From the IMG/VR virus record IMGVR_UViG_3300045440_000102, positions 1 to 35,115 of that record: 35,115 nucleotides of DNA, one strand, 5' to 3'. Shown here one piece after another: positions 26,643-31,761 of the stretch; the first letter of the stretch is position 1; each line of letters opens with the position of its first letter. The notes under the pieces are model-generated. The model did no database searches and was not told the origin of the DNA. It worked only from the letters and a program-made list of their open reading frames with translations. The position numbers and the translations under genes are program-made. The stretch is from a virus.

Positions 26643-26780
26643 GCTTTTCTTTCATTAAACCCATTCACAAAAGTGGTCGGGCAGATGCTGTGAAAGGGGA
26701 AAGCATCCTTGTCGGTCGAATAGCTAATTCGCCCCAAGCCCACAAACATCATACACTAAAAAAACAATGTACAATACACC
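26643..26780. promoter_or_regulatory. Divergent regulatory region between the two arms
   Basis: 138 bp without a gene. AATGTACAAT (26766-26775), a near copy of the TTGTACAA palindrome of the early promoters, ends 5 bp before the regulator ATG and contains a TACAAT -10 hexamer, so the rightward transcript could start at or next to the ATG. On the minus strand TTGTAC, 15 bp, TATGAT is a weak leftward promoter that shares the same palindrome. The rest shows nothing I can name. Confidence 0.5.
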
Positions 26781-27038
26781 ATGACTCAAAAAAAAATTAA
26801 ACCTTTTAAAGCCGAGTGTCGAAAGGCTCTTGACATGCTGCTTGCTCACTTTGGCACAAAAGCCGAGATGGCAAGGCAGGCCAAGATGAGCCGGAACACT
26901 GTTTCTTACTGGTTTACACGTGGCCAGGTAGGCCGTGTGGCAGCCAAAAAGTTCGGCTCAATGAAGACCTTGCCATTCACAAAAGAGCAGCTCAGGCCTG
27001 ACATAGGCAACTGGCTGCCGGTGGCCAAACGCAAATAA
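26781..27038 (+). CDS. Cro/YdaS-like HTH transcription regulator
   Basis: An 85-aa basic protein. A helix-turn-helix is visible in AHFGTKAEMARQAKMSRNTV (about 27-46), followed by SYWFTRGQVGRVAAKKFGSM and the ending LPFTKEQLRPDIGNW. The F-G-x-x-x-x-M-A-x-x-x-x-(M/V)-S...V-S-x-W-F-x-x-G and L-R-P-D-I endings are typical of Cro-like and YdaS-like phage regulators. It has no dimerisation domain of the CI kind. It is the first early gene and has no ribosome site before its ATG, which suits a leaderless mRNA. It probably binds the TTGTACAA palindromes overlapping its own and the other early promoters. A YdaS-type toxin partner is not present. Confidence 0.75.
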   Translation: MTQKKIKPFKAECRKALDMLLAHFGTKAEMARQAKMSRNTVSYWFTRGQVGRVAAKKFGSMKTLPFTKEQLRPDIGNWLPVAKRK

Positions 27039-27052
27039 ATTAAAAAAAACGC

Positions 27053-27128
27053 AAAATAGTTGTGTACGACTCAAAAAGTGTTGTACAATGCAATCACGGC
27101 AATGACGCCGTCTCAATGTTGTAAAGGA
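27053..27128 (+). promoter_or_regulatory. Early promoter P1 with operator palindrome and 5'-end hairpin leader
   Basis: TTGTGT (27060-27065), 18 bp, TACAAT (27084-27089). The -10 lies in the palindrome TTGTACAA (27081-27088). Seven bases after the -10 begins a hairpin ACGGC AATGAC GCCGT (27096-27111), so it would sit at the mRNA 5' end. CTCAATGTTG and the ribosome site GTAAAGGA (27121-27128) follow. Near-identical modules occur at 27712 and 30721. Confidence 0.75.
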
Positions 27129-27135
27129 AAAAATC

Positions 27136-27309
27136 ATGAATCAATTGACCAGAGACATCATGGCTTGGCTTAAGGTTGACGCAGACACGGCAATCAAAGT
27201 TCAAGAAGTAATGATGGAATACGCAGACGTAACATTTAGCAACAGCTCAACGGCTGTGTTGAAGCGTTTGGCCAAAGAATGTTTCCTCACACTCTGCAAC
27301 CGATCATGA
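27136..27309 (+). CDS. Small early protein, unknown function
   Basis: A 57-aa gene: MNQLTRDIMAWLKVDADTAI, KVQEVMMEYADVTFSNSSTA, VLKRLAKECFLTLCNRS. It follows promoter P1 and its ribosome site AAAGGA by 7 nt. It is probably a small helical protein. Its TGA overlaps the next ATG (ATGA). As a first gene behind an early promoter, it could be a host-takeover factor. No family is recognised. Confidence 0.65.
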   Translation: MNQLTRDIMAWLKVDADTAIKVQEVMMEYADVTFSNSSTAVLKRLAKECFLTLCNRS

Positions 27310-27704
27310 ACTACAAACACAATGACGGCGGTCGCAAGGCTGCAGGCTATAAAGGCGTAGCAGGTGATTGCGGTGCAAGAGCAATGGCAATAGCTCTGCA
27401 GCTTGACTACAAAGCCGTTTACAAAGAACTTTCTAAAGCCAACGCAGACAATGGCCGTTCAAGATCAGCGCGCAACGGCATCATGAAAGACACCTACACA
27501 GAGGTGCTCAAACGTCATGGTTGGATCTGGATGAAAGCGCCTACATTCGAAGGCCGTAAGGCTCGCTGCAGCGACATGCCTCCAGGCCATGTGATTGCCA
27601 AACAAGCCAGACACTTTGTTGCTGTGATCGATGGTGTGGCTCATGACAGCTGGAACTCATCGACTCGTATGGTCTATGGCTATTGGGCCAAAAAACAAAA
27701 GTAA
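27306..27704 (+). CDS. Putative papain-like fold (cysteine peptidase-like) early protein
   Basis: A 132-aa protein. ATG at 27306 is chosen because it overlaps the upstream stop; the in-frame ATG at 27279 has no better site. The order AGDCGARAMAIALQLDYKAV, GHVIAKQARHFVAVIDGVAH, then DSWNSS places Cys (in GDCGARA), His (in RHFVAVIDG) and Asp/Asn (in HDSWNS) as in C39/papain-like enzymes. The pattern D-C-x-x-R-A-x-A-I-A, H-x-x-A-V-x-x-G, D-x-W-(N/D) is familiar from phage proteins annotated as peptidase-like. It could cleave or modify a host protein early. Activity is inferred. Confidence 0.55.
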   Translation: MNYKHNDGGRKAAGYKGVAGDCGARAMAIALQLDYKAVYKELSKANADNGRSRSARNGIMKDTYTEVLKRHGWIWMKAPTFEGRKARCSDMPPGHVIAKQARHFVAVIDGVAHDSWNSSTRMVYGYWAKKQK

Positions 27705-27711
27705 AAAATAA

Positions 27712-27780
27712 TTGTGCAGCACTTAAAAAGTGTTGTACAATTAACCTACAGCAATCCGCTGTCTCAATGTTGTAAAGGAT
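27712..27780 (+). promoter_or_regulatory. Early promoter P2 with operator palindrome and covarying 5'-end hairpin
   Basis: TTGTGC (27712-27717), 18 bp, TACAAT (27736-27741) within TTGTACAA. Six bases later the hairpin ACAGC AATCC GCTGT (27748-27762) begins; compared with P1 and P3 one G-C pair has become A-T on both sides. CTCAATGTTGTAAAGGA follows, ending just before the gene at 27786. Confidence 0.75.
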
Positions 27781-27785
27781 CTACC

Positions 27786-27989
27786 ATGACTACTCTCACT
27801 GCAAACAACCCTTTGATGGTCACAATCAAAAACGTCTATGGCACGGAGATGATCTATCCTGCCAATTCAGTTGCACAAATTTTTGCTGACATTGCACGCC
27901 AAAAAACTCTTAGCCGCGAGACGCTTAAGCAAGCAAAAGCTCTCGGCTATGAGATTCAAGTTATGCAACCAAAATTAGAGCTTGCATGA
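27786..27989 (+). CDS. Small early protein, unknown function
   Basis: A 67-aa protein starting MTTLTANNPLMVTIKNVYGT. It continues EMIYPANSVAQIFADIARQK and TLSRETLKQAKALGYEIQVM. ATG at 27786 follows AAAGGA; the longer frame back to 27714 covers the promoter and is rejected. The middle is a helical pair, and L-S-R-E-T-L-K-x-A-K-x-L-G-Y-E-I-x-V is a common ending in small early proteins of environmental phages. The stop overlaps the next start. Confidence 0.65.
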   Translation: MTTLTANNPLMVTIKNVYGTEMIYPANSVAQIFADIARQKTLSRETLKQAKALGYEIQVMQPKLELA

Positions 27990-28096
27990 AAGTCTATCTT
28001 GCTCTTGCTGCCATCGGGATGCTAGTGCCTTTCTACTTGATTGGCTTAGCAGCCAACATGCTCATCATTCGCGTATGGTCATGGGCAACAGAGTGA
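27986..28096 (+). CDS. Single-helix membrane microprotein
   Basis: A 36-aa ORF: MKVYLALAAIGMLVPFYLIG, then LAANMLIIRVWSWATE. Nearly all of it is one hydrophobic helix. Its ATG overlaps the upstream TGA and its end overlaps the helicase start, so it is probably coupled on both sides. It could be a small inner-membrane protein acting in superinfection exclusion or host interference. This is speculative; coding is supported only by the overlaps and the TM-like composition. Confidence 0.45.
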   Translation: MKVYLALAAIGMLVPFYLIGLAANMLIIRVWSWATE

Positions 28097-28338
28097 AGCT
28101 ATACCCACATCAAGTGCAAGCGGTGCAATGGCTAGGTCAGCGACCTAAGGCCATTCTTGCTCTGGACATGGGTTTAGGCAAGACTTGTGTGTCTGCATTA
28201 GATTTAGTAAAGCCTGCGCTGGTGGTGTGCCCAGCCTCGTTGAAACTCAACTGGCAAAGAGAGCTGAAGATGTGCGTCCTGACCTTAGCGTACAAGTCAT
28301 CAAGTCACCTAAAGACCAGCCAAACAAATCTGACGTGA
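28081..28338 (+). CDS. SNF2-type helicase, N-terminal part (frameshifted from 28267-29630)
   Basis: The start of the helicase: MGNRVKLYPHQVQAVQWLGQ (Q-motif region), ILALDMGLGKTCVSAL with Walker A MGLGKT, then LVVCPASLKLNWQREL (motif Ia). After NWQREL the frame goes astray (KMCVLTLAYKSSS) and ends at 28338. The next frame continues with DVRPDLSVQVIKSPKDQ from 28267. One base seems to be missing between 28266 and 28267, for example a second G in CTG(G)AAG. The ATG lies inside the microprotein gene with no ribosome site, so translation is probably coupled. The gene is otherwise about 516 aa. Residues after 28266 in this frame are not part of the protein. Confidence 0.8.
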   Translation: MGNRVKLYPHQVQAVQWLGQRPKAILALDMGLGKTCVSALDLVKPALVVCPASLKLNWQRELKMCVLTLAYKSSSHLKTSQTNLT

Positions 28339-29630
28339 CCATCATCAACTACGACATTTTGCAGAAAGTAGAGCTGCCATCAGTCTCAACGTTGATTGTT
28401 GACGAAGCTCACTACGCAAAGAACTACAAAGCCAAACGCACAAAGGTTTTGATGCAGCTGATCAAGGCAACGCCTAACGTCAGTCTGCTTACAGGCACGC
28501 CGATCGTCAACCGGCCAATTGAGCTGTGGACTTTGCTCTACTCTATTGGCGCAACTAAGCTTGGCTACTTTGAGTTTGGCATGAGGTATTGCGCTGGTTG
28601 GAAAACACCATGGGATACCTACGACTTCACAGGTTCAAGCCGCTCTGCTGAGTTGGCAGCCCTGCTCAAACCATTCATGCTGCGGATGACAAAGACTGAG
28701 TGCTTAAAAGATCTGCCATCAAAGACTTACAGAGTCATTGAGCTTGACTTGCCAGTTGACAAGCGTGAGAAAGCTTTTGACCAAAAACAAATTGACAAGC
28801 CAGACTCAATACCTTTTGAAGCCATCAGCGACATCTTAAAGCTTAACGCTGAGCGCAAGCTGCCTGATGCAATCACATACATCAAAGACTGTCTTGAACA
28901 GACAGACAAGGTCGTGGTCTTTGCGCACCATATACACATCATTGATGGCTTGATGGAAGGGCTCAAAGAGTTCAACCCAGTTAAAGTAACTGGCTCAGTC
29001 AAGAACGAAGACCGTCAAACAGCTGTTGACACATTTCAAGCAGACAGCAAATGCAGGGTCTTTGTAGGCAACATCAAGGCTGCAGGAGTAGGTCTGACTC
29101 TGACTGCTGCAAGCCACGTAGTTTTTGTTGAAGCAAGCTGGTCGCCAGCAGACATACAACAAGCAGCAGACCGCTGCCATAGAATTGGACAGAAGGACAA
29201 TGTTACGGTCGACCTTCTGACCATATCCGAGTCCATCGACTCTTTAGTGCTGCATTCAGTGCTGACGAAGATGGACGTTATAGACCGCATCATCAAGGAG
29301 TCCACCATGGATCAATCTCTCATTGCACAAAAACTTCGTGAACTAGCCGATTTGTTTGACTCATTTGACAAGCAAGTAGAAGCAGCAGCCCCAAAGGCAG
29401 TCAAGCCAAAACCTGCTCCAACAGAACCTGTTAGCAAAATTGAAATAGCAGCCGATAACGACGTAGTTGCCACGCTAGACGACTTGCGTCAAGGCATGGC
29501 AGAATTGATTGGTTCAGGCAAGCGTGACAAAGTGGTTGCTATTCTGGCAAAACTTAACGTTAAAAAGGTTAGTGAAATTGATGAAGACAAGTTTGCAGAA
29601 GCAATGGGCCTAATCAATGGCGCACGCTAA
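28267..29630 (+). CDS. SNF2/HARP-like DNA helicase, main part
   Basis: This continues the helicase. The open frame reaches back to 28185 but is meaningful only from 28267. Motifs in order: TLIVDEAHYAKN (DEAH box), VSLLTGTPIVNRP (motif III), YRVIELDLPVD, VVVFAHHIHIIDGL (motif IV), VGNIKAAGVGLTLTAASHVV (motif V) and PADIQQAADRCHRIGQ (motif VI), which is the SWI2/SNF2 pattern. Phage members are short SMARCAL1/HARP-like enzymes that anneal or remodel DNA forks. The C-terminal 105 residues are a separate helical domain (MDQSLIAQKLRELADLFDSF ... LDDLRQGMAELIGSGKRDKV) with its own internal ribosome site. The end overlaps the nuclease start by 14 bp. Expression comes from promoter P2. Confidence 0.85.
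29307..29630 (+). CDS. Possible internal in-frame start giving the helicase C-terminal domain alone
   Basis: ATG at 29307 has a perfect AAGGAG 6 nt upstream, inside the helicase gene and in frame. It would give a 107-aa protein: MDQSLIAQKLRELADLFDSF, a Lys/Pro/Ala linker, then DLRQGMAELIGSGKRDKVVA and KVSEIDEDKFAEAMG. The last part resembles the helical domain at the end of several phage recombination and ssDNA-associated proteins (D-(V/L)-R...L....G...V..IL..L.V.KVSE...). It may be made as well as the full helicase, or it may be an independent gene later fused to it. The feature is predicted only from the ribosome site and domain boundary. Confidence 0.45.
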   Translation: MDQSLIAQKLRELADLFDSFDKQVEAAAPKAVKPKPAPTEPVSKIEIAADNDVVATLDDLRQGMAELIGSGKRDKVVAILAKLNVKKVSEIDEDKFAEAMGLINGAR

Positions 29631-30720
29631 GCTATCGCCCTCAGCAAGTGCAAGGTGGATGACCTGCCCAGGCAGCGTCCACTTAGAGCCTGACTTTAAA
29701 GGCGGCGACTCAAGCATCTATGCTGAAAAAGGCACAGCCATGCACACGGTCTCTGAAGACTGTTTGACCAAAGGCCTTGAGCCTAAGTCATTCATCGGCA
29801 AGACGGTCAACAAGCACATCATCACTCAAGAGATGGTCGACATTGTCCAAGTGTATGTCAACTACATTCAGTCTCTAAAAGGCCAGAAGTTTTACGAAGA
29901 AAAGGTCACACTGGCTGAAGTGATCAATGACTGCTGGGGCACGGCTGATGGCATTGTCATCGAAGGCTCATTGATGCGGGTCATTGACCTTAAAACAGGC
30001 GGTGGCATTCGAGTAGAGTCTGAAGGCAATACGCAGCTGCTTTGCTATGCACTAGGTGCCTACTTAAAGTATGCGCCTGCCTATGACATCACAACAATGA
30101 CCTTGACGATCGTGCAACCGCCAATGGGCAACATTGACTCATGGACCATCAGCGTCGAAGAGCTGCTTGCTTTTGCAGAAGCTCTTAAACTGTCTTATGC
30201 TGCAATTCAAAATGAGCCTAACAAGTTCGTAGCCAGTGACAAGGCTTGCAAATGGTGTCATGCCAAAGCGCAATGCCCTGAGATGAAGCGGCTAGCCAAT
30301 GAAGCTGCTGCAGTAGACTTTAACAGCATGAGCTTAGGCACTGTTGAAGAGTGGCTGCCAAAACTTAAGATGCTTAGCCTGTTCATTGAAGCCGTAGAAG
30401 CTAAAGCAAAAGACACGCTGCTTGGAGGAGGTTCAATTGAAGGCTGGAAAGTTGTTGAGGGTCGTAAAACCAGAAGCTGGACAGACCCTGCTCAAACTGA
30501 GTTGTGGTTAAAGCAGCAAGGCTATGACCAGATCTATACAAAGCCTGTTCTACTTAGTGTGGCACAAATGGAAGCCGCCCTTAAAGGTGAAAGCCTAGAC
30601 CTGGACGGTTTGGTAACCATTGGCTATGGGCAGCCAACCATAGCTCCTGAGAAGGACAAAAGGCCATCTGTGGACAAAAACCAGTCAGCCAAAAAAGATT
30701 TTGAGAACAATGCAAAATAG
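29617..30720 (+). CDS. RecB/Cas4-like PD-(D/E)xK nuclease with Fe-S cysteines (DUF2800)
   Basis: A 367-aa protein. SASARWMTCPGSVHLEP at the start (Cys17), GTAMHTVSED (about 39-48), then GTADGIVI (Asp111) and MRVIDLKTGGG (Asp124-x-Lys126), and TQLLCYALGAYL (Gln140..Tyr144) form the nuclease core. CKWCHAKAQCPEM holds Cys211, Cys214 and Cys220. Together with Cys17 this is the C...C-x2-C-x5-C iron-sulphur set of Cas4/AddB nucleases. By family knowledge (DUF2800) it is a phage exonuclease for recombination or host DNA breakdown. It follows the helicase with a 14-bp overlap. The next gene's promoter P3 begins inside its last codons. All catalytic residues appear present. Confidence 0.85.
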   Translation: MAHAKLSPSASARWMTCPGSVHLEPDFKGGDSSIYAEKGTAMHTVSEDCLTKGLEPKSFIGKTVNKHIITQEMVDIVQVYVNYIQSLKGQKFYEEKVTLAEVINDCWGTADGIVIEGSLMRVIDLKTGGGIRVESEGNTQLLCYALGAYLKYAPAYDITTMTLTIVQPPMGNIDSWTISVEELLAFAEALKLSYAAIQNEPNKFVASDKACKWCHAKAQCPEMKRLANEAAAVDFNSMSLGTVEEWLPKLKMLSLFIEAVEAKAKDTLLGGGSIEGWKVVEGRKTRSWTDPAQTELWLKQQGYDQIYTKPVLLSVAQMEAALKGESLDLDGLVTIGYGQPTIAPEKDKRPSVDKNQSAKKDFENNAK

Positions 30721-30790
30721 TTGTGTACAGCCCAAAAAGTGTTGTACAATGCTATCACGGCAACGTCGCCGTCTCAATGTTGAAAGATTA
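30712..30790 (+). promoter_or_regulatory. Early promoter P3 with operator palindrome and 5'-end hairpin leader
   Basis: GCAAAATAG (30712-30720, including the nuclease stop codon) matches the start of P1. TTGTGT (30721-30726), 18 bp, TACAAT (30745-30750) within TTGTACAA, then hairpin ACGGC AACGTC GCCGT (30757-30772) and CTCAATGTTGAAAGA. It drives the DUF932 and later genes. Confidence 0.75.
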
Positions 30791-30792
30791 TC

Positions 30793-31761
30793 ATGTCACA
30801 CGAATTAGACTTCTCAAACGCACAAGCTAACTTTGCTCAAGTAGGTGAAAAAGCATGGCACGGTCTTGGCCAGCAGTTAGAAGCAGGACAGCCTCTTGAA
30901 GTATGGGCTAAAGCTGCAGGCTTGTCACACACAGTCGAACGCTCAATGGTTCAGTACGCTGCAGGCGATATTTTGCTGCCACACACAACACGCGATGTGC
31001 TGTATCGCTCAGACACAAATGCACCTCTTGGCGTTGTTGGCAAAGACTACAAAGTTGTGCAGCCCGCAGACGTCTTAGACTTCTTTGCTAAATTAGCTGA
31101 GAACAACAACTTCGAACTTGAAACAGCAGGTTCATTGTCCAACGGCAAGCGTATTTGGGCAATGGCTAAAGTCAATGACGGTGCAACAGTAGTTGGTCAA
31201 GACGTAGTCAAGCCGTATGTTCTGCTTGCAACATCGTATGACGGCACATTGGCTACAACGGCACGTTTTACCAGCGTGCGTGTTGTTTGCTCAAACACTC
31301 TTGGCTTTGCTGCTTCAGAAGCTGGCGACACAATCCGCATCAACCACTCTAAAGAATTCAGTGCTAAAGACACAGCTCTTGACTTAGGCATTGCATTCAA
31401 CTCATTCGATAAGTTCTTGATCGACTCACGGCGCTTGGCTGCAAAAGAAGTGAACAGCACTTTTGCAGTTGAATTCCTTAAGTTGCTTTTGCCAGAATCT
31501 GTGCGCACTACTACAGTCAATGGCATCAAAACCAAAGAGTCTGTGCCAGTAGAAAACACAAAGGCTTTCCAGTCAATCATGGCTTTGTTTAACGGCCAAG
31601 CTTTTGGCTCTGATTTGCCAGAAGCTAGCGGCTCTGCATGGGCATTACTCAATGCAGTCACAGAACACGTTGATCACGGTCTTAACCAGAATGCAGCATG
31701 GTTTGGCTATGGCAACACTTTAAAGAACAAAGCACGTGACTTGCTGATGGATGTGGTCTAA
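30793..31761 (+). CDS. DUF932 phage/plasmid-like protein
   Basis: A 322-aa protein starting MSHELDFSNAQANFAQVGEK and AWHGLGQQLEAG. It contains VLYRSDTNAPLGVVGKDYKV, NGKRIWAMAKV, PYVLLATSYDGT, FTSVRVVCSNTLGFA and ALLNAVTEHVDHG. The A-W-H-G-L-G, L-G-V-V-(G/S)-x-x-Y and V-x-x-(S/Y)-x-D-G-x-x-x motifs are diagnostic for DUF932 (TIGR03299-type). The family is widespread in phages and plasmids near recombination and replication genes, and its function is unknown; single-strand DNA roles have been suggested. It is the first gene behind P3. Full length by family standards. Confidence 0.85.
   Translation: MSHELDFSNAQANFAQVGEKAWHGLGQQLEAGQPLEVWAKAAGLSHTVERSMVQYAAGDILLPHTTRDVLYRSDTNAPLGVVGKDYKVVQPADVLDFFAKLAENNNFELETAGSLSNGKRIWAMAKVNDGATVVGQDVVKPYVLLATSYDGTLATTARFTSVRVVCSNTLGFAASEAGDTIRINHSKEFSAKDTALDLGIAFNSFDKFLIDSRRLAAKEVNSTFAVEFLKLLLPESVRTTTVNGIKTKESVPVENTKAFQSIMALFNGQAFGSDLPEASGSAWALLNAVTEHVDHGLNQNAAWFGYGNTLKNKARDLLMDVV

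Follow-up and report, generated by a model that had tools for sequence, protein, structure and literature searches.

In lambda nut/boxB and HK022 put, an early phage transcript carries a small hairpin close to its 5′ end, and in the promoter used by the N4 virion RNA polymerase, a DNA hairpin upstream of +1 is the promoter itself. Stem-loops at the 5′ end are also known as protectors of single bacterial mRNAs, the E. coli ompA type among them, and such 5′ structure stabilizes the message by way of RppH and RNase E (PMC3997798). Two phage repeat families are close in layout. The PeSLs of T4-like phages (Arbiol 2010, Comeau 2014) are described as promoter–terminator composites (PMC4503421). The cluster K mycobacteriophages carry SAS/ESAS repeats, of which the ESAS has arms that are imperfect and 17 bp long, with a spacer that varies, and sits beside a 13-bp start-associated sequence, GGGATAGGAGCCC (PMC3203893).

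The locus described here is made of parts of these known kinds: a 5′ stabilizing stem-loop, a repeated phage promoter cassette as in the PeSLs, and a start-associated repeat as in SAS/ESAS. The window, whose 35,115 bases make up a complete IMG/VR virus record, contains one cassette in three copies, all on the + strand, at 27060–27138 (P1), 27712–27788 (P2), and 30721–30795 (P3). Direct reading bears out the coordinates and the description of the first-pass annotation, in which one plan recurs at 27060, 27712, and 30721. In each, TTGTGT/C is followed after 18 bp by TACAAT and, at a distance of exactly 6 nt, by a hairpin of 5 bp; CTCAATGTTG, a ribosome site rich in purines, and the ATG complete the order. 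The sequence AAAAAGTGTTGTACAAT has three exact copies in the window, where shuffles predict 0.21 matches even with three mismatches allowed. In P1 (promoter 27060–27089), a −35 hexamer TTGTGT (27060–27065) is separated by 18 bp from the −10 hexamer TACAAT (27084–27089), which is overlapped by the palindrome TTGTACAA (27081–27088). The hairpin ACGGC-AATGAC-GCCGT occupies 27096–27111 (arms at 27096–27100 and 27107–27111, predicted +1 at A27096) and is followed by the linker CTCAATGTTG (27112–27121), a ribosome site TAAAGGA (linker and site together 27112–27128), and the ATG of a 57-aa ORF at 27136. In P2 (promoter 27712–27741), the corresponding features are TTGTGC (27712–27717), 18 bp, TACAAT (27736–27741), and the overlapping TTGTACAA (27733–27740); the hairpin ACAGC-AATCC-GCTGT at 27748–27762 has a 5-nt loop (arms at 27748–27752 and 27758–27762, predicted +1 at A27748), and the linker (27763–27772) with its ribosome site spans 27763–27779 ahead of the ATG of a 67-aa ORF at 27786. 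P3 (promoter 30721–30750) has TTGTGT (30721–30726), 18 bp, TACAAT (30745–30750), the overlapping TTGTACAA (30742–30749), and the hairpin ACGGC-AACGTC-GCCGT at 30757–30772 (arms at 30757–30761 and 30768–30772, predicted +1 at A30757), with the linker (30773–30782) and ribosome site at 30773–30787 and the ATG of a DUF932 gene at 30793. In all three copies, the hairpin is delimited by covariation among 63 copies, with homologous leaders as a further basis in P3, and the linker and ribosome site by column conservation.

As in the ompA-type stem-loops, the hairpin stands upstream of the ribosome site at what is here the predicted 5′ end of the mRNA, and the sense-strand pairing that marks a 5′-terminal stabilizing stem-loop is conserved (315/315 pairs). 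Unlike that type, one hairpin is repeated before many phage genes, at the predicted +1, and covaries across phages. The PeSLs likewise combine a repeated host-type early promoter with a stem-loop before different genes (PMC4503421), and such repetition is found here too, with three to five copies in several larger related records and more than 10 gene starts. Unlike the PeSLs as described, the cassette hairpin is downstream of the predicted start. It has no U-tract and received no terminator call at any of the three sites, where CTCAATG rather than a T-run follows, and it was rejected as an intrinsic terminator. The SAS/ESAS repeats share with the cassette a position at gene starts in one phage group, and some are inverted (PMC3203893); the cassette arms are 5 bp long, and the neighboring sequence differs from GGGATAGGAGCCC. 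In contrast to lambda nut/boxB and HK022 put, the loop is not conserved (19 sequences, 5 or 6 nt long) and no boxA is seen by eye. The N4 promoters also pair an early phage promoter with a small hairpin, but the cassette has a sigma70-type −35/−10 promoter and only then, downstream of +1, the hairpin.

To describe variation in the hairpin, a sequence-only profile was run on 66 related sequences, which gave 65 distinct rows and 63 full elements; the copies from which the profile was made were already paired, yet the scoring gives pairing no credit. The outcome supports a genuine covarying RNA hairpin: in the 63 full copies, all 315 scored pairs are standard and none is broken. Two-sided changes fill 18 cells against a shuffled mean of 2.5, a count that overstates the independent events because the copies are related within and between genomes (some are nearly identical), and the covariation score was reached by none of 500 shuffles. 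When one partner is slid by 1–3 columns, pairing falls to 17–61%. The two-sided changes affect three of the five stem pairs, two of which also have wobble intermediates, while pairs 1 and 5 never vary. Five Watson–Crick stem versions are found (ACGGC/GCCGT in 45 copies, ACAGC/GCTGT in 10, and ACGAC/GTCGT, ATGGC/GCCAT, and ACACC/GGTGT in two each), together with two wobble forms (ATGGC/GCCGT and ACGGC/GTCGT, one each), and different versions also co-occur within one genome. The G-C to A-U change at pair 3 of P2, which had been read as compensatory from the window itself, is thus one of several. In close relatives, the series C-G, U·G, U-A can be followed: one contig (L299) has both U·G and U-A, and a relative of it (L243) has U-A at the same pair. 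The same stem recurs with different loops, ACAGC with AATCC, AATAAC, and ATCTTC, ACGAC with AACATC and GCTTTT, and ACACC with AATCTC and GCTCTT. From these loop contexts, and not from a tree, we estimate that two-sided changes arose several times, in at least six events. Template switching at a quasi-palindrome can produce a two-sided change in one step, and each single event weighs less for that possibility; it cannot account for the absence of broken stems without selection. An apparent covariation at the loop ends (A·C to G·U; 60 A/C and 3 G/T) is set aside: the three G...T loops also look like the usual loop in reverse complement, so the pattern could equally come from a loop inverted between its arms. 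Finally, the only two one-sided changes are both G·U on the sense strand, where the other strand would have A·C mismatches. Because the loops are 5 or 6 nt long, the stem sequence varies, and wobbles occur only on the sense strand, the comparison favors an element that acts as RNA rather than as a DNA operator.

The position of the hairpin relative to the promoter is equally constant. In 63 of 63 full copies, the −10 hexamer and the stem are 6 nt apart, the stem opens with A, and the nucleotide ahead of it is a pyrimidine (C in 56, T in 7). Since sigma70 polymerase tends to initiate on a purine that follows a pyrimidine some 7 nt beyond the −10, the stem A is by far the likeliest +1, and the mRNA very probably starts there, with no unpaired 5′ base. 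The earlier remark that the hairpin begins 7 nt after the −10, where transcription should start, holds for position in every full copy, and the pattern argues for the start.

The stem arms are under selection. Pairwise differences among 20 homologous P3 leaders average 0.058 in each arm, compared with 0.255 in the loop, 0.281 in the 6 nt that precede the stem, and 0.452 at the four-fold codon sites of the gene. In ViennaRNA folds, the stem pairs with a probability above 0.77 in each of the 63 copies (median 0.99); the hairpin energy is modest, at −7.0 kcal/mol in P1 and P3 and −5.2 kcal/mol in P2. The folding energy of the whole leader does not differ significantly from shuffles (z of −0.34, 0.04, and 0.35); with z near 0, folding energy is not used as evidence, and the case for the hairpin is comparative.

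The cassette is distributed within one group of uncultured phages. When viral contigs were scanned for the cassette ends only, TTGTACAAT and CTCAATGTTG with any sequence between, 32 stretches were returned, and all save a few unrelated matches have the hairpin in the same position. A protein-based search, independent of the motif, found the cassette in every leader read of a DUF932 homologue with at least 73% identity. Each of these leaders within the clade has a paired stem, where homologous leaders without pairing had been envisaged as the opposing case; in the leaders read at or below 42% identity, the cassette is absent. The same leader precedes more than 10 different gene starts with 36–42 nt between the predicted +1 and the ATG, which would befit a part that works independently of the gene. 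In one related record (G008), the next copy lies ~8.4 kb beyond the DUF932 leader, a distance that here would fall past the end of the window. Searches for the cassette gave no match in annotated phages and one 21-base chance match in plasmids, and the 16 stretches from a scan of GTDB genomes have no hairpin. A search for the hairpin with CTCAATG, without the promoter as a requirement, gave besides the cassettes only matches that lack a cassette promoter and look like chance ones in unrelated contigs. In the window, no Rfam family matches at or above its gathering threshold. The literature searched on phage 5′ hairpins contained no report of the cassette, nor of any phage lineage in which a covarying hairpin is the standard element at the predicted +1 of several promoters.

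Immediately upstream of P1, an 85-aa Cro/YdaS-like HTH protein with weak Pfam and PHROGs HTH matches is encoded at 26781–27038 on the + strand. The −10 of this gene is TACAAT at 26770–26775, and its mRNA is probably leaderless. As the gene neighbors P1 and has TGTACAAT in its own promoter, its product is the likely regulator and TTGTACAA its likely operator. Related records show that the elements of the cassette can be separated. In G001, which retains the hairpin, the −35 rather than the −10 carries TTGTACAA, and one −10 is TATAAT, again with the hairpin. In L258, a 28-nt insertion separates the hairpin, which stays beside the promoter, from CAATGTTG, which stays beside the ribosome site. In G009, a more distant relative, TTGTACAA-like sites lie at the −35 and −10 of promoters that for the most part have no 5′ hairpin, which indicates that a promoter of this type does not need one; a single G009 promoter has a longer hairpin of unrelated sequence, GTTGCAAGTT...AATTTGCAAC, placed precisely at the predicted +1, and a 5′-terminal hairpin may thus have been adopted more than once. 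Together, these arrangements point to three modules: promoter/operator, hairpin, and linker. Two points of the first-pass annotation stand in part: the shared operator is present as TTGTACAA at all three promoters, with a putative operator role and, as G001 illustrates, separably from the hairpin, and the promoters share one plan, while their description as early rests on gene content.

Both RppH and RNase E require single-stranded 5′ termini, which accounts for the stabilizing effect of 5′ structure, and RppH of B. subtilis acts only where two or more 5′ nucleotides are unpaired (PMC3997798). From this published biochemistry, and because the hairpin is placed at the predicted +1 with no unpaired base, we infer, at an even chance, that it protects the mRNA 5′ end from 5′-end-dependent decay by RppH and RNase E. 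The ~75-bp cassette would serve as a reusable promoter–leader that drives several separate, probably early, transcription units from a sigma70-type promoter overlapped by TTGTACAA, the putative operator of the neighboring Cro/YdaS-like protein. With the start fixed at A+1, the 5-bp hairpin would be the extreme 5′ terminus of the transcript, and the short conserved linker would connect it to the ribosome site. Lacking an unpaired 5′ base, the triphosphate end would be a poor substrate for RppH, and a paired 5′ end could not seat in RNase E, so that these mRNAs would escape 5′-end-dependent decay whichever gene follows. The wider proposal of a lineage-wide "structural cap", an interchangeable +1 hairpin at regulated early promoters that yields decay-resistant mRNAs in units movable between genes, is possible and is offered tentatively. 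Several observations count against 5′-end protection: inactivation of RppH affects only ~10% of E. coli mRNAs (PMC3997798), the hairpin energy is modest and the leader energy ordinary, and the G009 promoters mostly have no hairpin. The stem is also more conserved than a mechanical clip needs, as pairs 1 and 5 are invariant, which leaves room for a binding partner.

The main rival to 5′-end protection is a binding site, in which a protein of the phage or the host, or else the RNA polymerase as in nut- or put-like antitermination, reads the hairpin and CTCAATGTTG in the nascent RNA and alters elongation or translation. The near or full invariance of CTCAATGTTG and of stem pairs 1 and 5, the almost constant company of hairpin and linker, and the position of the element at the head of several units, for which shared control may be required, are all consistent with this. 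It is nonetheless unlikely, as the loop, the part that is read in boxB, has 19 sequences of two lengths, three stem pairs change, CTCAATGTTG does not resemble boxA (by eye and from general knowledge), and the L258 insertion parts the hairpin from CAATGTTG. Alternatively, the hairpin, as the first 16 nt of the transcript, could aid promoter escape, prevent backtracking, or shield the ribosome site from structure in the variable coding sequence. The exact 6-nt gap and the constant distance from predicted +1 to ATG would suit such a role; it is rather improbable given the same-type G009 promoters that mostly lack the hairpin, and insulation alone needs no stem exactly at +1. That the inverted repeat is the DNA operator of a dimeric phage regulator, from +1 to +16, is very unlikely: a 5-6-5 inverted repeat beside a promoter has the usual shape of an operator, the stem sequence is fairly conserved, and an HTH gene adjoins P1, but the spacing is 5 or 6 bp, the stem versions leave no fixed half-site, the one-sided changes are only sense-strand G·U, and TTGTACAA is the better candidate. 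The relatedness of the copies, some nearly identical, might suggest a functionless relic copied with the promoter in recent duplication, but this is extremely unlikely with two-sided changes in several loop contexts, no broken stem, and arms far less diverged than the loops and four-fold sites.

The cassette adds to the known RNA elements a covarying motif that is absent from Rfam. It also constitutes a clean natural test of 5′-end protection, since in one genome a single hairpin, with its sequence varied and its pairing constant, stands at the predicted +1 of several promoters. According to a review of T4, what RppH does in the turnover of T4 mRNA was yet to be established (PMC3014915). If the hairpin is protective, it would provide a compact part for expression design and would represent a lineage-wide phage strategy against 5′-end-dependent decay.

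In the promoter–leader cassettes of this virus and its relatives, the hairpin at the predicted +1 and the conserved linker are separable. On the minus strand of the related contig L258 (10056–10128), the hairpin and the linker element CAATGTTG are split apart by a 28-nt insertion. The same insertion is present in L149 and L154, and in all three contigs CAATGTTG still adjoins the ribosome site. Within the linker sequence CAATGTTGTAA, directly upstream of the ribosome site, lies an ATG-TTG-TAA mini-frame (window 27116–27124 and 27767–27775). Its ATG is conserved in nearly all cassette copies and its stop in only some; this is possibly a minigene or a chance occurrence. At the loop ends of the hairpin (alignment A4, columns 18 and 23), A...C is found in 60 copies and G...T in three (from L021, L259, and L300), with no Watson–Crick pair at these columns among the 60 + 3 copies. 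The pattern may reflect either a wobble-class pair or a loop inversion. In the distant relative G009 (contig L298, reverse-complement position about 7041), a hairpin that is longer than, and unrelated to, that of the cassette begins exactly at the predicted +1 ahead of a Gp2.5-like gene; other G009 leaders are without a hairpin at this position.

The palindrome TTGTACAA, a putative operator, lies at the −35 rather than the −10 in the related genome G001, as observed in all three of its hairpin-bearing cassettes (L259 3312, 6515, and 15185).

The window's SNF2-type helicase gene (28086–29630) occupies two frames, split near 28273. This break is absent from the relatives' alignments to the gene, and the split represents either a sequencing error or a recent loss.

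Finally, TACAAT (window 26770–26781, up to the ATG) lies just 5 nt upstream of the start codon of the 85-aa Cro/YdaS-like regulator and is conserved among the relatives listed, except two with 53% identity. Based on this placement and conservation, the regulator is probably translated from an mRNA with little or no leader, like lambda cI.
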